From Neelides folsomi (lineage: Eukaryota; Arthropoda; Collembola; Neelipleona; Neelidae), in NCBI GenBank assembly GCA_034687125.1, contig JAQGBZ010000007.1, positions 310,001 through 374,000 of the forward strand: 64,000 nt of DNA, given 5' to 3'. Both the position numbers and the translations under genes were made by a program. The notes under the pieces were generated by a model. The model had not been told where the DNA came from. It did not search any database and worked only from the letters and a program-made list of their open reading frames with translations. Below, piece by piece: positions 12,401 to 63,763 of the stretch; the stretch's first letter is position 1; the number at the start of each line of letters is the position of its first letter.

Positions 12401-14895
12401 TTCACTCCTGAGCTCGTAGTGGTGACTGGCTGGTATGAAGTCTTCGACTCTCCACTCATCCAGAGCACACATGGAGAGTCAAGAAAGTGTATCTAATCAA
12501 CTTCATTTCGGCCGTTTCTCACAGCCGATAAGGATGAATGGACGACCCTGGTTCAAAGTTTACAAATGTTCCCAGGGGCTCTAGTGGATGTAATGTAATG
12601 AGCCTCCAGTGGGGTCGTTAAGAGGAAGATATGCAAAAGGAGTCAATCCCCCTGCTTCATAATCCAAACTGGTCTGCCCAAATGAGTCCGTTCGAATGAC
12701 CCAAGATTACAATTTGTATACAAACAAATCTTGGGGATCGGAAGAGTGAAGGCTCATACGAGTGAAGTGTGCTTTGGCAAATTGGGATTTGCTCAAGAAG
12801 TGTTCTCATTGTCCCTGAGTTCATTTCTCATCGAGTGGAGGGAATTGAAGTGAACCAAAGGACCACAATGGAAGGTGGAAGAAAGAAGATAAAGAGCATA
12901 TCTAAGTATAGGTATATAATGTATTCTTATCAGTACACCTTTGGCGAGTCGTGCAATCGTTGCGAGAAGAGGCGAACCTTCAACCTTGCTGCTTTTCATT
13001 TCCACAAATCCCCATTCTTCTCACTCATTCTCCATACTTATCTCTCGTCTTGAACACTGGGAGAACATCAAGTGAACGATTATTTGTACAGGAAGCATTT
13101 AATCTTCTATTGCGCACCCATTCATAATTTTCATGAGATTTTGGATTTTTGGTGCAATTTTTTATCACTCAATTCCTCGCACTTCACAAGTCCATTAACT
13201 TGAAATTTGAACATCATTTTACTCTCAGGAGTGTCATAAACAAGAGCATTTGTTGATTCATGGTGTTGATATCGTTGTTATTCATTTTATCTCATTGAGT
13301 GCTCCTTGCCTTATCCAAATGATTCAATTGGTAGCAAAGTGAGCAGTTTACAAGTTGTAGTAATGTAAGTAGGAGCTCTTACCAGCCCTAGTTTTTTCCT
13401 ATGGACCTAAAGTGGGCACTCATCATCATCAGTAATCCCATCCGATTCACTTCGCTACGTCAGAGTTCATATAGCCAAATGGTCCTTTTCATCTCTCCGC
13501 CTCAAAATACAAATTCTCGATATTGAGCCCACCAATTTTCCCTCATTAAAGTGTGAAGTGTGAACCTTTGGAGTTTCATTAGACCACCACAGCAGGTAGA
13601 CCGTTCACTTGCTCTGCAAAAACCGACTGCGGAATTCACCTTGTTCTCCTTTGTCCACTCTGTTGTGCGAATCTTTAGGTGTTGAGAAGTTTGAGCAATA
13701 ATAGGAGTGACAATAATGTAGAGTCACTCTCACACCACTTTTACACATCTTGGAGACAAAGCAAGAAAAGTATCATTAACAGGAGAGTTTAGCTCCTTCT
13801 TGAGAACTCGGTTAGCACTCGCTTCATTGCAAAACATTCTTTTTTGCTAATTATTCTCATTAGCTTATTAAGACTTGATATTCCATTCGACCATTTTCCC
13901 ACCGTCACCTGGCAATTTAAACCTCTATTGCCTTTCTTATCGTTAGTTAATGTTCAACCCAATGAAGAAAAGAACCTAATATTCCTAACTGTGACTGAGC
14001 GAGTTGGTATTATATGAGAAAGAATAATGATTTTTGACGACGTTGGTCGGATTTCATCATATCAAAAGGAGAGTTGTAAATTGTGGAAATTTACAACTTT
14101 ATCTTAACTATTAACTATATTATAACTTTTTAGAATCCCATTTGCGACAACTGCTTATATAATATAAATACTTACTATACATGTAAGATAAGTATGTTCC
14201 ATATGTATTACATGTTTTTTTATATTTAATTTAATGTTTTATTATTTGTTTTCGTCTCTCAACATCACCTATCTTTATTTGAACAAAATAGTAATTAACA
14301 TTAATGTAAAATTTTATATTAATGAAAGTGAGAAAAATTAAATTTAACCTTTAAACCAATCACACTTATTTGTTAATCAAATAATTTCCCAAGAATGAAA
14401 TACTATTGTTCTGCAAACATCATGAATTTCAATAGTACAGTTTTCAATGTGAGTTGCATAAATTTTGCAAACAGTATTGTATGACAAATTATATACAGAT
14501 ACATAAAACTTCATAAGTTAAGGTTTAAAAGTTCAGACGAATTTTGAGTCATTTAAGATTTGACAATTAAATAAGCTGTATTACATATATACTTAATGTT
14601 AGTAATATAAGTATAAGATTATACTTTTTGTGTATCTAGTGGAGCACTGAGGTAAACAGTGCACAGTGAGATAATTATTCAAACAAGATCATTGTTCAAA
14701 CACAATTCAAAAATGCCATTATTTTTCCAGAGAGTCATCCAAACCACACAACGATGATTAGATTATATTTCTCATAATTTTAATAAAAGGTTTTTTGCAT
14801 TGTATTTTATTTTATCAATTCGAAGGCCTCATTTCAATTTTGTGGATTTCAGTAGCTGCAGTGTTGAAATTGAACGTCCCGACCTGTCACCCAAG

Positions 14896-23800: not shown

Positions 23801-24671
23801 TACCATATGTATCTTCTACATAGTTAAATGAGAACAAACTTTAGTAGTAAAATTGTATTTCAACTGAAAATAGGTAGGAAATATAAAATGTATATTTGGA
23901 CCAAAACTCACGTCATCATTAAATACAGTTTGTATTGGTCGAATGTAGCTTTCTAAAATTGTTGACTTGATGAGAAATTAATAAATTGATCTTTTTACAG
24001 AGCGCCCTGATTCTCGATCAACCGACGACGAGAATCCTCACCATCCAAGAGAGCGAGGGTCGACGAAAAGCAACCGAACTTCACGGCTCGAAACTCCAAC
24101 TTCCCACTTAAGAAGCGCGTCCTGTGAGAGACCGAAGACAGGTCAGAGGTTAGCTTTTAATGATCGAAGGGTCGCCACCACTCCAAGACATCAAGAACAA
24201 AAGGGAAAAGTCGTCACAATGCGACCACCAACGAGGTCATATTCTGCCAGTGGCACAGCTGAATTTTTCCGTGGTCCTGCAAAAGGCCCCTCAAATGGAA
24301 TGAAAACTCAGAAAGTTCGTCCGTACACAGGGAGAGTTCCTCCATTTGTGGACCAATTTTCAGGGAAGAACACGTGGAGCGGGTCAAATTCTGGAAGAAC
24401 CAAAGTTCGGCCCAATCTTTTTGAAGCTAATTTTTCCAATGGACAAACCGAACCTGATAATCCCGATCTTGCCCTGTGGATTAAAAAAGCTCTCGACCTC
24501 GAGTCAGATGCTGATAAGATTTCTCATATTGAAAAGGCAATTAAGCAATTTGAGCAGAGGCAAAATGAGATGGCCAATACGGGGGAAGAAATTCGCTCAA
24601 CTCCAAAGCTCACTTTCCGAACCAGGAAAGAAACTGGAATGACGAAAATACCCAAGCCAAAATTTTTCTAA
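14896..24671 (+). CDS. GAS2L: GAS2-like protein (CH + GAR domains), microtubule/actin linker
   Basis: Nine exons: 14896-15099, 16900-17166, 17370-17561, 17937-18044, 20211-20252, 20467-20518, 20592-20673, 21883-22112 and 24001-24671. All junctions are GT-AG and in phase, giving 615 residues. Exons 1-3 encode the calponin-homology domain (about residues 15-185), with the family's RPFKSSDEYLWAMKEDL start and the RDNVHNFITWCR and ILRKNEKNVILCLLE blocks. Exons 4-6 encode the GAR (GAS2-related) domain, from VRELVERC to [20 protein letters not shown] (about 222-287). The remaining half is low-complexity, Ser/Arg-rich and basic, and ends in a TKIP motif at 607-610, an EB1-binding type of signal. In this family the CH domain relates to actin and the GAR domain to microtubules, so the protein probably cross-links the two. 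The ATG at 14896 is the first in the open exon; an AG acceptor about 45 bases upstream suggests a spliced 5' UTR. The last donor (GTCAAG) is weak, so the junction from exon 8 to exon 9 is the least certain. Which GAS2-like paralogue it matches best cannot be told by eye. Confidence 0.93.
15100..16899 (+). other. Intron 1 of the GAS2-like gene
   Basis: This 1.8 kb intron splits the CH domain. Its first 600 bases are AT-rich. About 15,720-16,890 is GC-elevated and open in several frames on both strands, but shows no recognisable domain. Confidence 0.7.
18045..20210 (+). other. Intron 4 of the GAS2-like gene
   Basis: This intron of about 2.2 kb lies inside the GAR domain, between the VMIYVR and ILRSHCMIRV segments. 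No further exon or RNA gene is visible. A somewhat GC-richer patch lies near 18,480-19,050. Confidence 0.7.
20674..21882 (+). other. Intron 7 of the GAS2-like gene
   Basis: A 1.2 kb intron, AT-rich, with nothing recognised. The acceptor at 21,881-21,882 joins in phase to give ER-RRDLFDP. Confidence 0.65.
22113..24000 (+). other. Intron 8 of the GAS2-like gene
   Basis: A 1.9 kb intron with a weak GTCAAG donor and a strong TTTTTACAG acceptor. A small additional exon inside it cannot be excluded. None was seen that is needed to keep the frame. Confidence 0.6.
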
Positions 24672-29191: not shown

Positions 29192-31083
29192 TTAAAAACG
29201 AACACTTCGACGATTTCCCTGGCGAGAAATTTGGAAATTTCCACTGTCCTCAAGGTCTTTGAAAGTTGCTTCATTCAACTTGCTAACTGGGCTGAATGTC
29301 TTCGAATTAATATTCTTCTGTTAATTTTTAAAATATCAATAAATTAATAGAAACTTGAATTTCTTAAAATATAATTGCTTGACAAATTAATTTAATTTAC
29401 CCTTCCAAGACGAGGAGTTGAAGGAGTTCCCAATCTAAAATGACAATAAAAATCAATGTCAGTTCTTAACACTTCCTCAACACTGAACGCATGTAGGATC
29501 CTACATGTGTAACTAGATAGAATACGTCATGCAAATGATGTATTCGCGCACCTAATGACATAGATATTATTATGAATTGAAAACAAGGTATATAAAGTTG
29601 ATAATTCATATATTTGTGATAATTACCTACAGTTAGTAATTATAATTGTATATTAGTATTAGTAATAATATAATATAGAAAATACCAGGTGTAAAAATAC
29701 TGCATAATATGTATAATAACATGATAGTTATAACTTATAATATAATAATGCTAAATAATAAAATAACTGGTAGTTATTTACAATGATAATGAAATAATTT
29801 AGTAATAACATAACATTTGTATTGGCCATATTTTCTTAAATTTTTGCCTTTCTTTGTCCGAAACAAATTCATCCATTTACCCTTATCATGCTTTTGGAAT
29901 TAGTTTGACACCTTTATGCCTTGTTTTCAATGTGTCGTAGGAACTTTACAATATTTCGTTATGATTATTGTATAAACGAAAAAGTTAAATGTAATTTACA
30001 TTTACATTCACTATTAGGTAAATAGACTAAAGCGTTACAAAGAAAAAGCGCATCATTTGTATTTGTATAATAATGGCGGCGCAGCGCAAACCTCCCCTAT
30101 ACCTTCAGCATTACGAAATTCTGATTTCATAATGATTTTCAATTTTTACGATTTCTCGATAAGTGTTTTATTCAATTTTAATGGATTTTATTATATATAA
30201 AGATACTCTTCTGAGGCATTTCCAAAATCTCAGAAGTGTAGATTTATGTTTTATAATAAATTCATATTTCTAAATAATAATGATCATAATGTTTATGGTC
30301 CCAATCTCATAAACAATGTAAAAATGACATATTTTGAAAATAGAATAAAGCATTCTCACCTCTTTGGAGTTTTGTTTAAAGGCGAATCAAAGCCAAATGG
30401 GCTGTAGAGCTTCGTTGGAGTGCGACCCAAAATACGTCGAGTTGGGCTCGCATCATTATTAGGAGTTTCCATTCTGTATCGACGGCGAGTTGAACGACGA
30501 AATTTCTACGATAAATAAAATTTATAAAATATTATATACTGTATATCACAATACTATTAGTTAAATTACTATTATTACTATTCATTATTTAATTAATTTA
30601 TTATTTTTTAATCAATTGATAATTTATGACAACTTGTGAGAAATTCCCCAATGAAGCTCTCATATCCTGAACAGTCTTATTGATCCTTTTGCCGAAAGAT
30701 CCACCCCGAACATTGGAGGTCTTGATCTTTGAGCTTGAAGTCGAAGGAAGTGTGTCATTATCCACCTCTTCCTCTTTTTCACTCTCGATGGTTGAGTACT
30801 TCCGGTCGAATTGAGCGAAAGAAGTCCCAAACTTTCGAAGGAAATAACCCTTCCCCTCCGTCTCTGCTGGCTCTTGGTTCTCAATTTCTTTCTCGACAGG
30901 CTCGTTGTCAACTTCTTTCGCAACGGCCTCGACAACTTCGTTGAGCAAATTTTCGACTCCCTCCATGTCTTCGTCATAATGCTCCGGGATATTTTCTTCA
31001 TTGTGAACCTCCAATAGGTTCCTCTGCTGGGTCGGCTGTCCGCGGAACCAAGTGAAGGAAAAGCTTCTCGCGTCGGGTCTCAT
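29192..31083 (-). CDS. Unknown S/T-P-rich protein with an FGF motif (possible cohesin/cell-cycle regulator)
   Basis: Four exons read on the minus strand: 31083-30634, 30505-30360, 29434-29401 and 29317-29192. All have GT-AG junctions and matching phases, giving 251 residues. The start is the ATG at 31083. A TTTTCAG acceptor lies four bases upstream, and joining it to a likely 5' UTR exon ending at 32064 puts a stop in frame, so the coding start is firm. Residues 1-20 hold an aromatic SFSFTWF segment, followed by a strongly acidic stretch (about 30-110). The C-terminal 100 residues are basic, with about nine S/T-P pairs (for example RTPTK, KTPKR, STPR), typical of CDK substrates. The run KLYSPFGFDSP contains the tripeptide FGF, which in sororin binds Pds5, and a preceding KFRRS-type basic run is also sororin-like. 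The sororin C-terminal domain is not visible, however. The family is not identified and the sororin idea is only a suggestion. Confidence 0.7.
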
Positions 31084-32791
31084 GATTCTGAAAATAATTA
31101 TTTTATGAAAAAAATGAATTTATGTTCTTCATTCACAAAGCTTTTATGCAAAAAAAAATTAATTATTATGTAAATATTAATTATAAAATCTATTTGAAGG
31201 TTTTTAACTGTTTGAGAAATGTATTTTAGCCTATTATCAAGCGCTGATTACGAATCTGAAGTCTGTATTGCAAAGCTAACATAACCTCAGGTCAACCTGA
31301 TACAAATAAACAATAAATTATAAAGCATAGTTCATGTTAAATAAAGGATTGGAGAGCATGTTTATAGAATTGTCGTGCAATTTAATAGAAACTCAGAAAA
31401 GGGAATTGAGTCAATTCAATTGACCAACTTTAATTTTACATTTTTCTTCATAAATTTGCATTCTTATTAGACAGCAGATTCGTGAAATCCATATTTCAAT
31501 ATATGTATCTTAAATTGTAAAAAAAAGTCATAGGATTGAAGGTGGCGAACTGTCCTCTGCCCTCGCGTTCAATTTTGCTATCAATTTTGTCCATAATTGT
31601 AATTAATCCTTAAAAGCAATAAATATAGTATGCTTGGGTAATGGATATGAAAGCGACTTAACTTTATGGGAAATTGTAGAAATCTAATAAAGGATAATAA
31701 TAATAATGTTCATGATAAAAATGTCCAGCTCATCATTTTGTAAATTCAGTTAATACACAATGCAATTGCTAATATTTGAAATATTTATTATTTTAAAGGC
31801 ATCAGCTTACATTATTACAGTTTGTAAATGAAGAAATTATAAATGCCTTGCCTTTTTAGATTGGTGAGTTAAAAGGTATAAAATTACATTATTATCTCTG
31901 AGCAAGAAAGATAAAATTGAATTGCTATTCAATAAATGGATAAAGTAAAGATAATAAGCAAAATGAGCACAATTGTCAAGACAAAACAATCCCGCGGTTC
32001 CACGGGCTCCAATTCCATTATGAAATTAAGGATGAACAAACAGAATACAAGGAATATAATTACCTTCGATGGGTTGTATGAAATTAGGCGTGAAATGAGG
32101 AGGGTTTAAGTCGAGACGTCGAGGTTAATTGGAATTAAGAAGAGGGAATTAAGTTTGGAGCATTTGCGGATGGAATTTTGTCAGTTGGGAAGGATGGTGG
32201 GAAGAAGTTGAGGCGGTCGGCTCTGGGTCTGGTTGCATATGGAAGTGGAGGGGAAGGAAGGGGAACGGACTTTCAAACTTTTTCCCTCCCTCCCTCCGCT
32301 TTCCCTTAAACATGCTTACTATATTTAATTGTCTTGTTAATTCACCCCCTTCGGTCGCCGAATTGCCGATTGCGGAGGAGTCTGTCATTAAATATAAATG
32401 CTTCATCATCGTCACCTCGGCGTCAGTCTCTCATGTCCGACTTGAATGGTCCTTTCTTCTGAGAAATTATTTAAGATTCAGAATCTCCCTCGACCGATCT
32501 TTCCTTTTTCGCACTCGTCCGCCGTTACCCTTCAACACCTCACTTTCCCAATTCTTCAGATTTTGCAATGTGAGATTTCATAATTTTAATAATTTTGAGA
32601 TGTTTAGATATGCTTAGTCATAAATAGGGCGTGGTTGTACATTTTAGGAGCCGTCGTTCACTAGTGAACCAAGGCTCTTAAAATGCTCTTTTTTTAATTA
32701 TAATTAGTTTTTTTAGTAGATCTTTTATCATTTTTCATTTTGTTTTAATTTGAAAAAATAACATTTAATTTAATTGATAATTGAGCGTAGG
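31084..32791. promoter_or_regulatory. Shared divergent promoter region
   Basis: The gene at 29,192-31,083 (-) and the SMC5-like gene (+) start head-to-head here. About 32,060-32,600 is GC-richer than its surroundings and is the best candidate for the common promoter. On the minus strand a 5' UTR exon probably ends at 32064 (donor GTAATT). On the plus strand an AG just before the SMC5-like ATG may be the acceptor of a leader intron. No TATA box was assigned. Confidence 0.5.
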
Positions 32792-35700
32792 ATGGAGACG
32801 GGGGAATCATCGTCCCGACAGGCAATGGGGATGGAGAGTCCGAGTGAAATTCCGTTGCCCGGGTACAAAATCCACATTATTAAAAATGGAATGGCCAGGA
32901 GGATTTGCTTGAAACCTAAACCGGAAGACGAGGAAGATGAGAGTGAAGAATCGCTGTTTCCGACTCCAGGTCAATTGCCTCCGCCGCATCAGCGTGCCCC
33001 ATTGCTCGCCATTGAAAATGGCCAAGAAGATCATGGACGTGGAGTCAAAGGCATAATCGTGAGGATGAAACTTCAGGATTTCTTGTATGTTTTTTATTGC
33101 CTTAATTAATTTATAATTTAATATTTAATTACTCTCCAACTCTCCCATACACATTTAAACTAATTACAATTAGCTATATATTTTTGTTATAAATGTAAAA
33201 AAAGTAGCATGAATTATTTTCATTTCATACGAGATTATTTCTCTCATTTGATTGACATTTTTGTATTTGTTTAAATATTTTGGACATTTTTATATTTATA
33301 GGGCTTATGATTGCATGGAACTACATGCTGGACCCAATATCAACTTCATTGTCGGATCTTGTGGATCTGGAAAGAGCACGATTATCGCTGCCATTTGCTT
33401 GGGCTTGGGAGGGCCATTGAGGCTCTTGAAACAGTCGATGTCTGTAAGTACTTTATCTTAAAAATTCATTTTGGGATTGTGAAATCTTCAGGAATATGAA
33501 TTAGAATGATCTTTATTTAGCCAGGTTAAGTTTGCTGCACCCATTAGCATATTATACGAAATGGCCATAATAGTCCCCTGATCCCCAAACCCCTTTCCAT
33601 ACCAACTTCGGAGTTAAAGTCGAAAGTTAGGCCACTAAAAAAATACCAGGTAAAACAAATGAAACAATGAAACCATGCCTGTTTTGGATCCGCTCATACT
33701 CCCGCGAGCACAAGTCCACTGCAGAGGACATACAGAGCGGATATGTATATATTATTATATTATATACAGTGTGAATCAATAATAACGCAACAAGATAAAA
33801 CATAATTAAATAATTACAATTGAATGTCTTGCCTTAATAACTGTTTATATTTAATCAAAGTTGTAAGTTGAAAATACAGGGTGACACATCTTATCCACTC
33901 ACATATAGGAAACATTATAAAGATAGGAATACTATGTAATATATATACTGAATTAAATTATTAAAAACGGCGTTTTATAATAAATATATTATAAAATGGC
34001 TAGGTCACCACTTTAAATGCCATTTCAATATCATTGCCCCAACTTTTTTAATTAGATTGAAAGAGTTTTCATTGTGGAAACATTTATTTCAAATAATAAG
34101 GATTCTTGGATAACTCAAAAGTCAATATTCCTAAAATATTATAAAACGTCGCTTTAAATAATTTAATTCGGTATTCCTATCTTGGTAATGTTCCCTATAT
34201 GGAATGGATAAGATGTGTCACCCGGTATATTGTACTCTGTGTATCCTCTGCAGTATATGCTCGCAGAAGTATGGCTCAGGGTATAGTAGGTGTGTGTGCT
34301 TACCTCTGTAAAATATTAAACAATCCTATTAATTTTATAATTTCTTTTAATTTAAAATCCGAATTATGTTTCCAGTAAGTGTTTTTATATTTATTTAAGC
34401 TCGGAGATTACGTTCGGGATGGCGCGCGTTTTGCATCGATTGAAATCGAATTGTTCAATCCAACTGGACTAAATTTTTTGATCAGGAGAATTATCAAACT
34501 TGAAGATAGAGGAACCTTTTCATACTGGTACTTAAATTCAGCAAGAGTTGTGCGCCGTGTGGTGAGCTGTAAATATATGAACTCCTCTCCTCTACCATTC
34601 AATTATTCTTTGGCTTAAATATAGAATTCATATTTTAAACTTTTATTTTCTTTAGGTAATGGGATTGGTGAATCATCTTGGCATCCATTTGGACAACTTA
34701 TGTTCATTTTTGCCACAGGATTGTATGGAAAAATTTGTCCTCATATCTCCCGAAGATCGCTTTCAATCCTTCTTAAAAGTTGCCGAGAACGGGGAATTGT
34801 ATCTCGAATGTGCTGAATTAGAATACTTCCAAGAACAGAACGATTTCCAACAAAATGACAAGAAACAGAAAGGAGCGGGCCGAAAACAAGCAAAGAAAAA
34901 TAAATCTCCAAAAGTGTCAACTGGGATTAAAGCAGAGAAACGAGAGTCAATTGAGAAAACTAACAAAAAGAACGGATTAAAGGCACAGGCAATTTGCTTA
35001 CAATTAGACGAAGCTAACAAAGACGTCGAGGTTAGTAAATTTTCAATTCACCTAATAATTTGATTGTGAGTAAATGTGTATGTGACGTTGTGCAAAGTAT
35101 CTGTATTTATATCTGTAGTTACTGAACAATACCTAATTTAATTTGTATCTAATGAATTGATTCACAAAATGGTATTTACTGCTATTCTATCTCTTAGCTT
35201 TACGGTCATGGACAACCAGGTTCTTCCAAACATCATGAACAAAAAGATAAATTCAAGATCGGAGCCAACGATCAACAAAAGAAGAGGAAGGAATACGAAA
35301 AGTCAAGAGCTCTTTGGATTACCCGACTTCAAAATTCAGTCCAATTGGTCAACAATTCGTTTTCCAAGTTATTCAATGCAATGAGATATGAAGGCGCCGT
35401 TGTTCTTACTCTGCCTAGGGATAAGGTTAAAACTCACCAATATGTTAATGCATTAAATCAATTGGTTAAACATGGAATTTTAATTTACAATTAATTATGC
35501 AGGATTATTTTGAAAACTATGGGCTCTCGATCATGGTCAGGTTCAGACAATCTAAAGAATTGAAGGAATTGGATAATTATCACTCCAGAGGAGAACGCTC
35601 CATCACAACAGCTCTTTATTTCCTCTCACTTCAGGATTCACTTAATGTGCCATTCAGAATTTTTGACCAGATCAATCAGGTTAGCACTATATTTAAAATG

Positions 35701-36332
35701 TAAAATATGCATTTATAGTATCTTCATCTGTATTATTATTGTAAATAAGTTAATTTCAATTTTACTTTAAGGGGATGGACGACATGAACGAGGGAAGAGT
35801 CTTCCATCTTTTTTGCCAAGGACTAAATGGAACACAAACTCCACAATATTTCATTTCCTCTACTAAGGTATACTTTATCTAATCAAATCTACTATAATTT
35901 CTAGTTAACTAAGGTATATATATTACCTATATTTTAATATATACTAAATGTAATATAAATTTAGTTTGTAATAATTCTTATTTTTTTCTTAATTTGCTTT
36001 AATTTAATTTTCTAAAATTACTTCATATTAGTTGGAAATACATAATACATAATTGTCATTAATAATTCTTTCAGATGCTTCATGCAAGAGCTGTCTCGCC
36101 AATTATCGATTTCCACATGATTTTCGGTGGGGCAATTATTCAACTTGGAAATATAAAAGATCCAGCTAGTCGCAATGCTCTTTCAGTCATTTTGACTGCA
36201 TTTGAATGCCCTCGCACTCCCATAGTGGAAAAGGATGCTTCAGATAGCGATTCTGAATCTTTGGCTGAAGATGAATCCATGGAAGATCATGACTGGGAAA
36301 TGGAATTACGAATCAAATCAGAGGAGTTTTAA
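32792..36332 (+). CDS. SMC5: SMC5-like protein lacking hinge and most coiled coil
   Basis: Eight exons: 32792-33084, 33302-33443, 34400-34561, 34656-35030, 35198-35425, 35503-35679, 35772-35867 and 36075-36332. All are GT-AG and in phase, giving 576 residues, about half of a normal SMC5. The order matches SMC5 heads. Walker A is GSCGSGKST (116-124), followed by the ICLGLGG segment; the Q-loop is NLCSFLPQD (213-221). The C-terminal head starts at ITRLQNSVQLVNNSFSKLF, with the signature at 427-433, Walker B at 451-456 and the D-loop QGMD. SMC5 normally pairs with SMC6 and holds DNA in repair and replication. Here the arms and hinge between the half-heads are reduced to a Lys-rich linker (about 255-365). 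The signature reads SRGERS instead of SGGERS, and Walker B ends DQ instead of DE. A paralogue with a changed role fits better than a pseudogene, because no frame is broken. The intron between exons 4 and 5 is only 167 bases, too small to hide the missing domains. Confidence 0.9.
33691..34277. mobile_element. Fold-back (MITE-like) element in SMC5-like intron 2
   Basis: Two inverted arms: 33878-33981 pairs with 34138-34230, including a perfect 18-base stretch (33879-33896 against 34206-34223). Outer segments 33691-33745 and 34231-34277 are also complementary. The left arm carries about 130 extra bases between its outer and inner parts. No transposase frame is present. It is a non-autonomous inverted-repeat element within the 956-base intron that follows the Walker A exon. 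Confidence 0.7.
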
Positions 36333-37310: not shown

Positions 37311-50359
<13,049 letters not shown>

Positions 50360-57065: not shown

Positions 57066-60433
<3,368 letters not shown>

Positions 60434-61693: not shown

Positions 61694-63763
61694 ATGGCTC
61701 AAAGACCTTCAACTTCTTCTGAACAACCAGGACCCTCAACTTCTAATCCGGCCTCTTTAGTCGAAATTGCCAGAACCATGCGAGGGTTGAAGCGTAACAA
61801 TCAAGGCGCCCCCATTCTCAATGGCGATCCTTCAACTTGGACGAAAGAGGACAAACCCCCAGAGATGATATGCCCCATCTGCTTCGACTATCTCTTCGAG
61901 GCACAAATCACCAGATGTGGGCACACATATTGTCAAAAGTGCATTGTAAATGCTCTCAAAATTTCTCCAAAATGTCCGGTTTGTGGAGTGTCAGTCCAAG
62001 TCGAACAACTCGTTCCAAATTTCGCCATGAACCAAGCTGTGGTCGTTCGTCGGCAAACCAAGCGGCCCACCACTGTCAATTACAGTGTTTTCGTTGACAA
62101 AATCGACATCCGTCGGCTCGTGGCTTCCACCACCAGCTCGAACATCCTGAACCTCAACGACGTCGACGCCCTGATGAAGATCTTGGCCCAGAAGAAGGAG
62201 ATTTTGACAGCAGAGTCTTCGGAATGCCAGCGTCATCTCCTCACCGAGTTTTTATCCGACATTCGAAAGATTAAATTGTCAGAGAAGGAGCAGCTCGAAC
62301 GGGAAGTCGCCCTCATCGACCGCGATCTCAACCATGTCGTCCAGGAGAACGATATGAACTCGAGTGAACCTCCACCGAGGAATGAAGAAGAAAAACCCAA
62401 ATCTCCCTTCATCGTCGGCTTCAACACCCAGATGCCTCATTTCCTCAATGCGGAAGACACCTTCCACAGCCGACGTCGACGGATTGCCACGCACTTCGAC
62501 GAACTGAGCCGGATCTATTTGACCTCTCGGAATTCTGAGCTTTTCGACATCAACGACGCCCTCGTACCTGACGACATGCAAGAAGGAATCGACTTCCAAT
62601 CTCTTTCCGAATTTGGACGAACTCTTTCCCAAATCTCCCGCTATTCGGCCTTAAAACCCCTTGCCACGCTCTCCTACAGTCCTGACCACCTCTCAAACTC
62701 CAACATCGTCTCGAGCATTGAGTTTGACAAAGACAGCGAATTCTTTGCCATTGCGGGCGTGACGAGGAAAATCAAACTGTTTGACTATGCGGCTGTTATT
62801 GGCTCAGCCGTTGACATTCATTGTCCAACGACTGAACTTTCCTGTGCAGCTAAAATCAGTTGTGTGGCTTGGAGCAATTATTACAAAAACAATCTCGCGA
62901 GCTCGGACTATGATGGAAACGTGAACATTTGGGATGCTGCTGCTGGAACTAAATTACGGTACAATTATTAAATAATAATTATCATGTTAAATTTAATGAT
63001 TCTTAATTTAAAATTTTATTTTCTATTAATTTAAATTGCTAGATAATTAGTAAACGGTCTTTGTTTGACAATTAGATTTTATTGAAAATAAATTTATTGC
63101 AGGACATTGAGCGAGCACGAGAAGCGAGTTTGGAGCGTTGATTGGAGCAATGGAGATCCGCGACTCTTGGCTTCAGGCTCTGATGACTCAAAGGTCAAAC
63201 TCTGGTCGTGTCAACAAGACCGCTCTGTTGGCACCCTCGAAGCAAAAGCCAACGTTTGCTGTGTTAAATTCTGCCCTGAGAACAGTTACATGATTGCCTT
63301 TGGGTCAGCCGACCACTGTGTCCATTACTACGATTTCCGACATCCCAAAGAAGCCCTGGGGATTCTTGCTGGGCACAGCAAAGCCGTGAGCTATGTCAAG
63401 TTTGCTTCAAAATACGAACTCGTCTCCGCCTCGACAGATAGCCATTTGAAATTATGGAATTTGGAGACAATGGACTGCGTCCGATCCTTCTGTGGTCACA
63501 CGAATGAGAAAAATTTTGTTGGTCTTGCAACGGATGGGAAGTTCATTGCTTGCGGGTCTGAGAATAATTCCTTGTATGTTTACTATAAGTCACTTCCGAA
63601 GCCTCTCTTTCACTTCAAATTCGACAATCACAAGAGCATGGTGGACAAAGCAAAACCTGAAGACTCCACCGAATTCGTTTCTGCCGTCGCTTGGAAGAAA
63701 AATTCACCGGTGGTTGTAGCCGCAAATAGCCAAGGAGCTATCAAAGTTCTTGAACTCGTTTAA
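61694..63763 (+). CDS. COP1: E3 ubiquitin ligase COP1 (RING, coiled coil, WD40)
   Basis: Two exons, 61694-62958 and 63103-63763, joined in phase (CG|G), giving 641 residues; vertebrate COP1 is about 730, with a longer N-terminus. The RING is C3HC4: C60, C63, C75, H77, C80, C83, C94, C97. It is followed by the conserved VPNFAMNQ segment. A charged coiled-coil region spans about 160-230. The C-terminal WD40 propeller (about 335-641) carries COP1-specific blocks such as [31 protein letters not shown] and [12 protein letters not shown], and the chain ends [14 protein letters not shown]1 is the substrate-binding and catalytic subunit of ligases that target transcription factors such as c-Jun and ETS proteins. 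The ATG is the first in the open frame. The gene is nearly intron-less compared with its neighbours. Confidence 0.97.

Follow-up and report, generated by a model that had tools for sequence, protein, structure and literature searches.

A hinge-less paralogue of SMC5 with altered ATPase motifs in the genome of the collembolan Neelides folsomi

A short gene in the genome of the collembolan Neelides folsomi raises the question of what an SMC5-like protein could be when it has the two ends of SMC5 and almost nothing between them. The gene, which we call mini, lies at positions 32792-36332 on the plus strand of the window, a stretch of 64,000 nucleotides from contig JAQGBZ010000007.1 (C7:310001-374000) that belongs to an assembly of 75.1 Mb in 840 contigs. 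We found that mini is a divergent paralogue of SMC5 and is not the organism's SMC5, which is predicted on a different contig. Mini has no counterparts of the long coiled-coil arms and hinge of canonical SMC5, and two of its ATPase motifs are altered. Below we consider how it arose, whether it is an artefact or a decaying copy, and what it might do.

As modelled, mini has eight exons, GT-AG boundaries at all seven introns, and 576 codons with no internal stop. A phmmer search of the PDB chain sequences with the mini protein recovered 42 distinct sequences at E ≤ 0.1. The top match was the SMC5 of 9lwi (E 2.5e-57, 198 bits), followed by four more SMC5 sequences at 165-167 bits, and then by SMC6 (60 bits) and SMC1A (49 bits). 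Among the SMC classes, both half-heads are nearest to SMC5, for which the five chain sequences scored 165-198 bits. We take the SMC5 chain of 9lwi to be human and those of 7ylm and 8i4v to be from budding yeast. According to their structure papers, the chains of 7qcd and 7tve are also from budding yeast (PMC9191643, PMC9458440). In the alignment to 9lwi, residues 79-282 of mini correspond to SMC5 residues 43-244, and residues 353-507 correspond to 917-1071. Approximately 670 SMC5 residues between these two stretches are reduced to 70 in mini, or to a linker of about 110 residues if the count starts where, by eye, the N half-head stops. The original prediction, which was made by a model from the DNA letters alone, had proposed likeness to SMC5 at both protein ends, two half-heads joined by a short linker without a hinge, and eight in-phase exons with good splice sites. 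All three proposals agree with these data, with 70-110 residues in place of the arms and hinge. The Pfam SMC_N profile also matched mini (59.3 bits, with a cut-off of 40). A scan with NCBIfam models gave 12 weak matches (Rad50, SMC, RecF and similar), all below their own cut-offs, and a comparison of the protein with viral contigs gave 20 pattern matches and no confirmed relatives.

Searching the assembly with the mini protein gave 13 matches, eight in the window gene and five on a second contig, C1. A full-length SMC5, a search for which in the rest of the genome had been advised in the original prediction, was found there as a predicted gene of 15 exons on the minus strand (C1:98027-103021) encoding 1181 amino acids, or 1180 with an alternative acceptor for exon 13. 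This model was assembled from open frames and splice sites with alternatives chosen by hand, and both the 1181 residues and the length of 180 nt for exon 13 assume the acceptor that was used for the four-sequence alignment described below. Residues 90-1138 of the C1 protein match the SMC5 of 9lwi with E 3.1e-125, and it retains the SGGERS signature and the catalytic Glu. Given this complete model, we rejected the idea that mini is the organism's only SMC5.

The exons of mini correspond to exons 1-4 and 12-15 of the C1 gene, and SMC5 exons 5-11 have no counterpart. Exon 1 (32792..33084; 293 nt versus 371 nt in SMC5 exon 1) contains the start codon, a divergent N-terminal extension and the first residues of the N half-head; like its C1 counterpart, it ends in phase 2. 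Exon 2 (33302..33443; 142 nt in both genes) encodes N half-head sequence with Walker A and is followed by exon 3 (34400..34561; 162 nt in both) and exon 4 (34656..35030; 375 versus 372 nt), which carries the FLPQD motif and, after it, what is left of the proximal N arm, rich in Lys. The junction intron (35031..35197; 167 nt, phase 0) stands in place of SMC5 intron 4, exons 5-11 and intron 11. Beyond it, exon 5 (35198..35425; 228 nt versus 258 nt in SMC5 exon 12) holds a C arm remnant and the start of the C half-head, and exon 6 (35503..35679; 177 versus 180 nt in exon 13) holds the W-loop, signature and Walker B. Exon 7 (35772..35867), with the D-loop, has the 96 nt of SMC5 exon 14, so that exons 2, 3 and 7 are identical in length to their partners. 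Exon 8 (36075..36332; 258 versus 204 nt in exon 15) encodes the last head strands and an acidic tail, and ends in the stop codon TAA. Within intron 2, between 33718 and 34254, there are nested inverted repeats resembling a palindromic non-autonomous transposon, with paired arms at 33866-33900/34202-34236, 33902-33932/34171-34201, 33945-33982/34137-34174 and 33718-33737/34235-34254.

The intron phases of mini and the C1 gene agree at every junction. Six of the seven mini introns are at aligned places and in the same phases, and the seventh is the junction intron. Its donor side matches SMC5 intron 4 and its acceptor side intron 11, in phase, a correspondence that is based on phase, exon length and the flanking alignment, sequence similarity at this place being weak. 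SMC5 introns 4 and 11 share phase 0, so that a single deletion between them would yield mini in frame, and such a head-only form would be easy to evolve. Mini reads as a DNA-level duplicate of SMC5 with an internal loss of several exons. We infer the order of events: SMC5 would have been duplicated, and exons 5-11, encoding the distal arms and hinge, would then have been deleted between the two phase-0 introns. Retroposition was rejected as the source of the copy because the introns are retained.

The same comparison bears on whether mini is an otherwise normal paralogue whose arms and hinge were dropped during assembly or sit in exons that went unrecognised. We compared residues 350-936 of the C1 protein to the whole assembly and found seven matches, all seven on C1, which leaves no second copy of the arms and hinge. 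A tblastn comparison of these residues to the window gave only two matches at chance level (E 1.6 and 3.8; 12901-13155 and 59151-59246). A missed hinge exon was rejected on these grounds. The SMC_hinge profile had five matches on four contigs of the assembly; it missed the hinge of the C1 protein as well and was therefore not taken as evidence of absence. The junction intron, which is too short to encode a hinge, matched only itself in the assembly, in a DNA search that skips very common words, and the window contains no N. Both flanks of the junction are phase 0. Mini is also not a mis-joined piece of the C1 gene, as the two differ at 176 of 334 aligned head positions (the columns present in all four of mini, C1, human and yeast SMC5). 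We consider an artefact of this kind very improbable. The original prediction had placed the gap at the 167-base intron and had considered a missed exon unlikely, and both views stand; the assembly collapse at 35,030-35,198 that it named as a way of being wrong was rejected on the evidence above.

What remains of the arms in mini is short and altered in composition. Exon 4 can still be aligned to the proximal arm of SMC5, and exon 5 to the end of the C arm. The residues L, I, V, M and F make up 15% of mini residues 246-355 and 28% of a 123-residue SMC5 stretch, Gly and Pro together account for 10 of the 110 linker residues versus 4 of the 123, and Lys and Arg for 25 versus 30. The linker thus resembles a neck that has collapsed.

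The heads retain some ATPase motifs and have lost others. Walker A is present as GSCGSGKS (residues 116-123; 33354..33377, plus strand), keeping GxxGxGKS with Cys in place of the Asn of GPNGTGKS, and the Q-loop (FLPQD) and D-loop (GMD) are both retained. The signature is altered to SRGERS (residues 428-433; 35584..35601, plus strand) from the SGGERS of C1 and 9lwi SMC5, and one residue immediately ahead of it is missing relative to SMC5. In FRIFDQ, Gln456 (CAG; 35668..35670, plus strand) replaces the catalytic Glu of Walker B. The altered motifs and the exon structure shared with C1 had no place in the original prediction. Among SMC5 chains of the PDB, 9lwi, 7ylm and 8i4v have Glu at the position of Gln456, whereas 7qcd and 7tve have Gln. 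PMC9191643 describes yeast Smc5-E1015Q as an engineered Walker B mutation that slows hydrolysis. This is the same replacement, engineered there and natural in mini, although the yeast protein is full length with an SGGER signature and mini is head-only with SRGER. Two other papers state that hydrolysis was undetected when both SMC subunits were Walker B-mutated (PMC8096239) and that Walker B mutations were employed for a structure of the holo-complex (PMC9458440). Overall, mini has in common with canonical SMC5 (9lwi_I, 7ylm_A and the C1 gene) both protein ends and the Walker A, Q-loop, D-loop and W-loop positions, and with the C1 gene also the positions and phases of introns. The canonical proteins have distal arms, a hinge, SGGER and the catalytic Glu, whereas mini has a short Lys-rich linker and altered motifs. 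The original prediction had offered a free ABC-type ATPase as one possible role; the replacement of the catalytic Glu by Gln and of SGG by SRG makes this unlikely. We favor, with modest confidence, the view that mini is a head-only pseudo-ATPase paralogue of SMC5.

If mini does not turn over ATP, it might still bind the partners of an SMC5 head. The head of yeast Smc5 has a W-loop-like region that contacts Nse1, and residues Y961/W964 and F972/L978/L981 were mutated there (PMC9458440). Y961, W964, F972, L978 and L981 align with F403, Y406, F414, L420 and L423 of mini, and all five positions are identical between mini and C1 SMC5 by our reading of the four-sequence alignment. As a sign of docking on Nse1, this retention is suggestive only. 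According to PMC9191643, the C-terminal domain of Nse4 binds below the Smc5 head and its N-terminal domain binds the Smc6 neck, and Nse2 binds the middle of the Smc5 arm in yeast. The mid-arm is missing in mini. Candidates for several partners are encoded in the assembly. There is an SMC6-type C half-head on contig C99, with SGGERS and DE, for which the best PDB match is the SMC6 of 9lwi (E 8.2e-15). Matches above cut-off were found for one of two with the Nse4_C profile (contig C55) and one of two with the MAGE profile (contig C348). The zf-Nse profile had two of six matches above the Pfam cut-off, at G000:C256:38276-38377 and C14:34872-34985; these could be two Nse2/MMS21-type genes, or one such gene and a related zinc finger.

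On these features, we lean toward the view that mini regulates SMC5/6, by poisoning SMC6 or by competing for Nse1/3/4. Walker A, the Q-loop, the D-loop and the Nse1-docking loop would have been retained after the duplication as the signature and catalytic Glu were lost and the frame stayed open. The protein, if expressed, would fold as an armless SMC5-like head, bind ATP, and bind SMC6 or Nse1/3/4 unproductively, without turnover. A pair of mini and SMC6 would be asymmetric: the mini site together with the intact SMC6 signature could hold ATP unhydrolyzed, and the ATP of SMC6 would meet the broken signature of mini. Mini could also dock on Nse1 through its W-loop, with Nse4 beneath the SMC5-like head. 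In either way it could lower SMC5/6 activity as a competitive or poison-head modulator and might serve as a natural brake on this DNA-repair machine. With its signature broken, mini is no less likely to compete for Nse1/3/4 than to poison SMC6.

A different outcome would be recruitment of the ATP-binding head to a new role outside SMC5/6, for example through the Lys-rich linker or the acidic tail. The fast divergence of mini described below, its rewritten linker and its differing terminal sequence are what such a change could leave behind. Against this, conservation is strongest in the SMC5 head, and there it extends to the five W-loop positions with yeast counterparts that face Nse1; we regard a role elsewhere as unlikely.

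Divergence was measured over the 334 shared head columns. Identities were 158 for mini and C1, 152 for C1 and human, 152 for human and yeast, 130 for C1 and yeast, 118 for mini and human, and 113 for mini and yeast. Of the 83 positions that are invariant in mini, human and yeast SMC5, C1 retains 75. The yeast row was the 7qcd chain, which has Gln at the position of residue 456, and this position is therefore outside the count of changed invariant positions given below. In a four-sequence tree (LG+G4), the mini branch was 1.03 substitutions per site versus 0.32 for C1 SMC5, and the informative sites split 16:5:1 in favor of pairing mini with C1. Over 354 head codons, mini and C1 are identical at 0.61, 0.71 and 0.48 of first, second and third positions, and the NG86 method gave dN 0.45, dS 1.43 and a ratio of 0.32.

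Several of our results weigh against a working regulator of SMC5/6. Mini evolves approximately three times faster than its sister, the C1 SMC5. It retains 75 of the 105 positions that are invariant in C1, human and yeast SMC5. When tails and linker are included (555 codons), NG86 gives dN 0.61, dS 1.46 and a ratio of 0.42. Each ratio is an average over the two branches and, with C1 under constraint, does not by itself prove that mini is constrained. If function was lost recently, stop codons would not have appeared yet, and the case for function comes from one genome. The broken signature should weaken engagement with SMC6 as well. The five W-loop identities are weak evidence when 158 of the 334 head positions are identical anyway. 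Lastly, the Nse1 profile had a single match in the assembly, below cut-off, possibly owing to divergence or split exons. The SMC6 and NSE partners suggested in the original prediction are thus matched in part, with an SMC6-type C half-head and Nse4, MAGE and zf-Nse matches on one side and Nse1 below cut-off on the other.

Taken together, the accelerated branch, the 30 changed SMC5-invariant positions, the loss of catalytic residues and the ratio over all 555 codons are also what would be expected of a truncated SMC5 copy that has no function and is drifting to a pseudogene. The state of the reading frame speaks against this, and the stop count does more than dN/dS to indicate constraint on mini. 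We simulated neutral change in the mini coding sequence, with 300 frames at each level of divergence. After 0.02 substitutions per site 70 frames were still free of stops, after 0.05 there were 9, and after 0.1, 0.2, 0.3 or 0.6 there were none. Simulations that began with the C1 exons left 66 and 7 such frames at the two lowest levels, and then 0. The simulations used base frequencies and a transition bias that we chose, and included substitutions only, with indels left out. Mini has kept 576 stop-free codons, seven GT-AG introns and SMC5-like phases at a dS to C1 of about 1.4, with the lower ratio of 0.32 in the head. In addition, the GKS of Walker A, the Q-loop, the D-loop and the W-loop positions have escaped change. 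A long period of free decay is thus unlikely, although a short recent one is possible. Overall, we rate decay as unlikely, a shade less probable than a role outside SMC5/6.

A head-only SMC protein has a precedent. In PMC5373644 (Chao et al. 2017), SMCL-1 of Caenorhabditis is described as a short SMC paralogue, without hinge or coils, that regulates condensin; it binds the condensin SMC subunits, and the authors propose that it modulates condensin. A 2025 paper restates this summary (PMC12629237). Mini and SMCL-1 share the absence of hinge and coils, the presence of N and C half-heads, a retained Walker A and the status of a short paralogue beside complete SMC proteins. Both also have an imperfect signature and have lost the catalytic Glu of Walker B. 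With its 576 residues and its motif pattern, mini has the structure of a head-only pseudo-SMC of the SMCL-1 type. The two differ in that Glu is replaced by Asp in SMCL-1 and by Gln in mini, and in that SMCL-1 has condensin partners whereas the nearest relative of mini is SMC5. Mini is therefore of separate origin and not an orthologue of SMCL-1. By analogy, we infer that mini could work as SMCL-1 does. PMC5373644 places SMCL-1 homologues in some Caenorhabditis only, and its authors deemed similar partial SMC proteins possible elsewhere. The genome that carries mini has a mitochondrial gene order that looks arthropod-like: COX1 lies on contig C742, and by our reading of the open frames the genes run nad2-cox1-cox2-atp6, with some 30-40 bases separating cox1 from cox2, which resembles the ground pattern of arthropods, in which no tRNA stands at this place. 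ARAGORN with the bacterial code detected 0 tRNAs at this locus. SMCHD1, which is cited in PMC5373644, is another truncated SMC whose role has changed, but it resembles the hinge only and is the converse of mini.

The original prediction knew of no SMC5 of this form. We found no description of a hinge-less SMC5 in the open-licence PMC literature, which was represented mostly by titles and the openings of abstracts, so that novelty is unproven; for Daphnia pulex, a published survey has one SMC5 entry (PMC2680839). The head-only plan is not wholly new, given SMCL-1, and no prior case of a version derived from SMC5 was found. It is a tentative idea, which we hold somewhat less firmly than that of a regulatory role, that hinge-less poison heads evolved independently at least twice, against condensin in Caenorhabditis and against SMC5/6 here. 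If so, the SMCL-1 solution would be convergent and not a nematode oddity. Mini would then be an endogenous competitor for the Nse1/3/4 module or the SMC6 head, and a natural dominant-negative in which each lost motif gives a specific prediction. The abstracts of papers on SMC5/6 give its roles as DNA replication, repair and viral restriction, and the regulatory subunits of the human complex are termed poorly defined in PMC9708086.

Other open frames in the window were also surveyed. Just downstream of mini there is a run of long minus-strand open frames (37311-41177). Three of these were scanned (37311-37931, 38249-38581 and 39989-40441) and had no Pfam match at E ≤ 0.001, and the same result was obtained for the frames at 45906-46448 (minus strand), 30601-31119 (minus strand) and 23985-24671 (plus strand). 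By eye, the frame at 37311-37931 recalls a focal-adhesion-targeting helical bundle. On the plus strand at 61697-63763, two long open frames encode a RING finger followed by WD40 repeats. This layout recalls the E3 ligase COP1.

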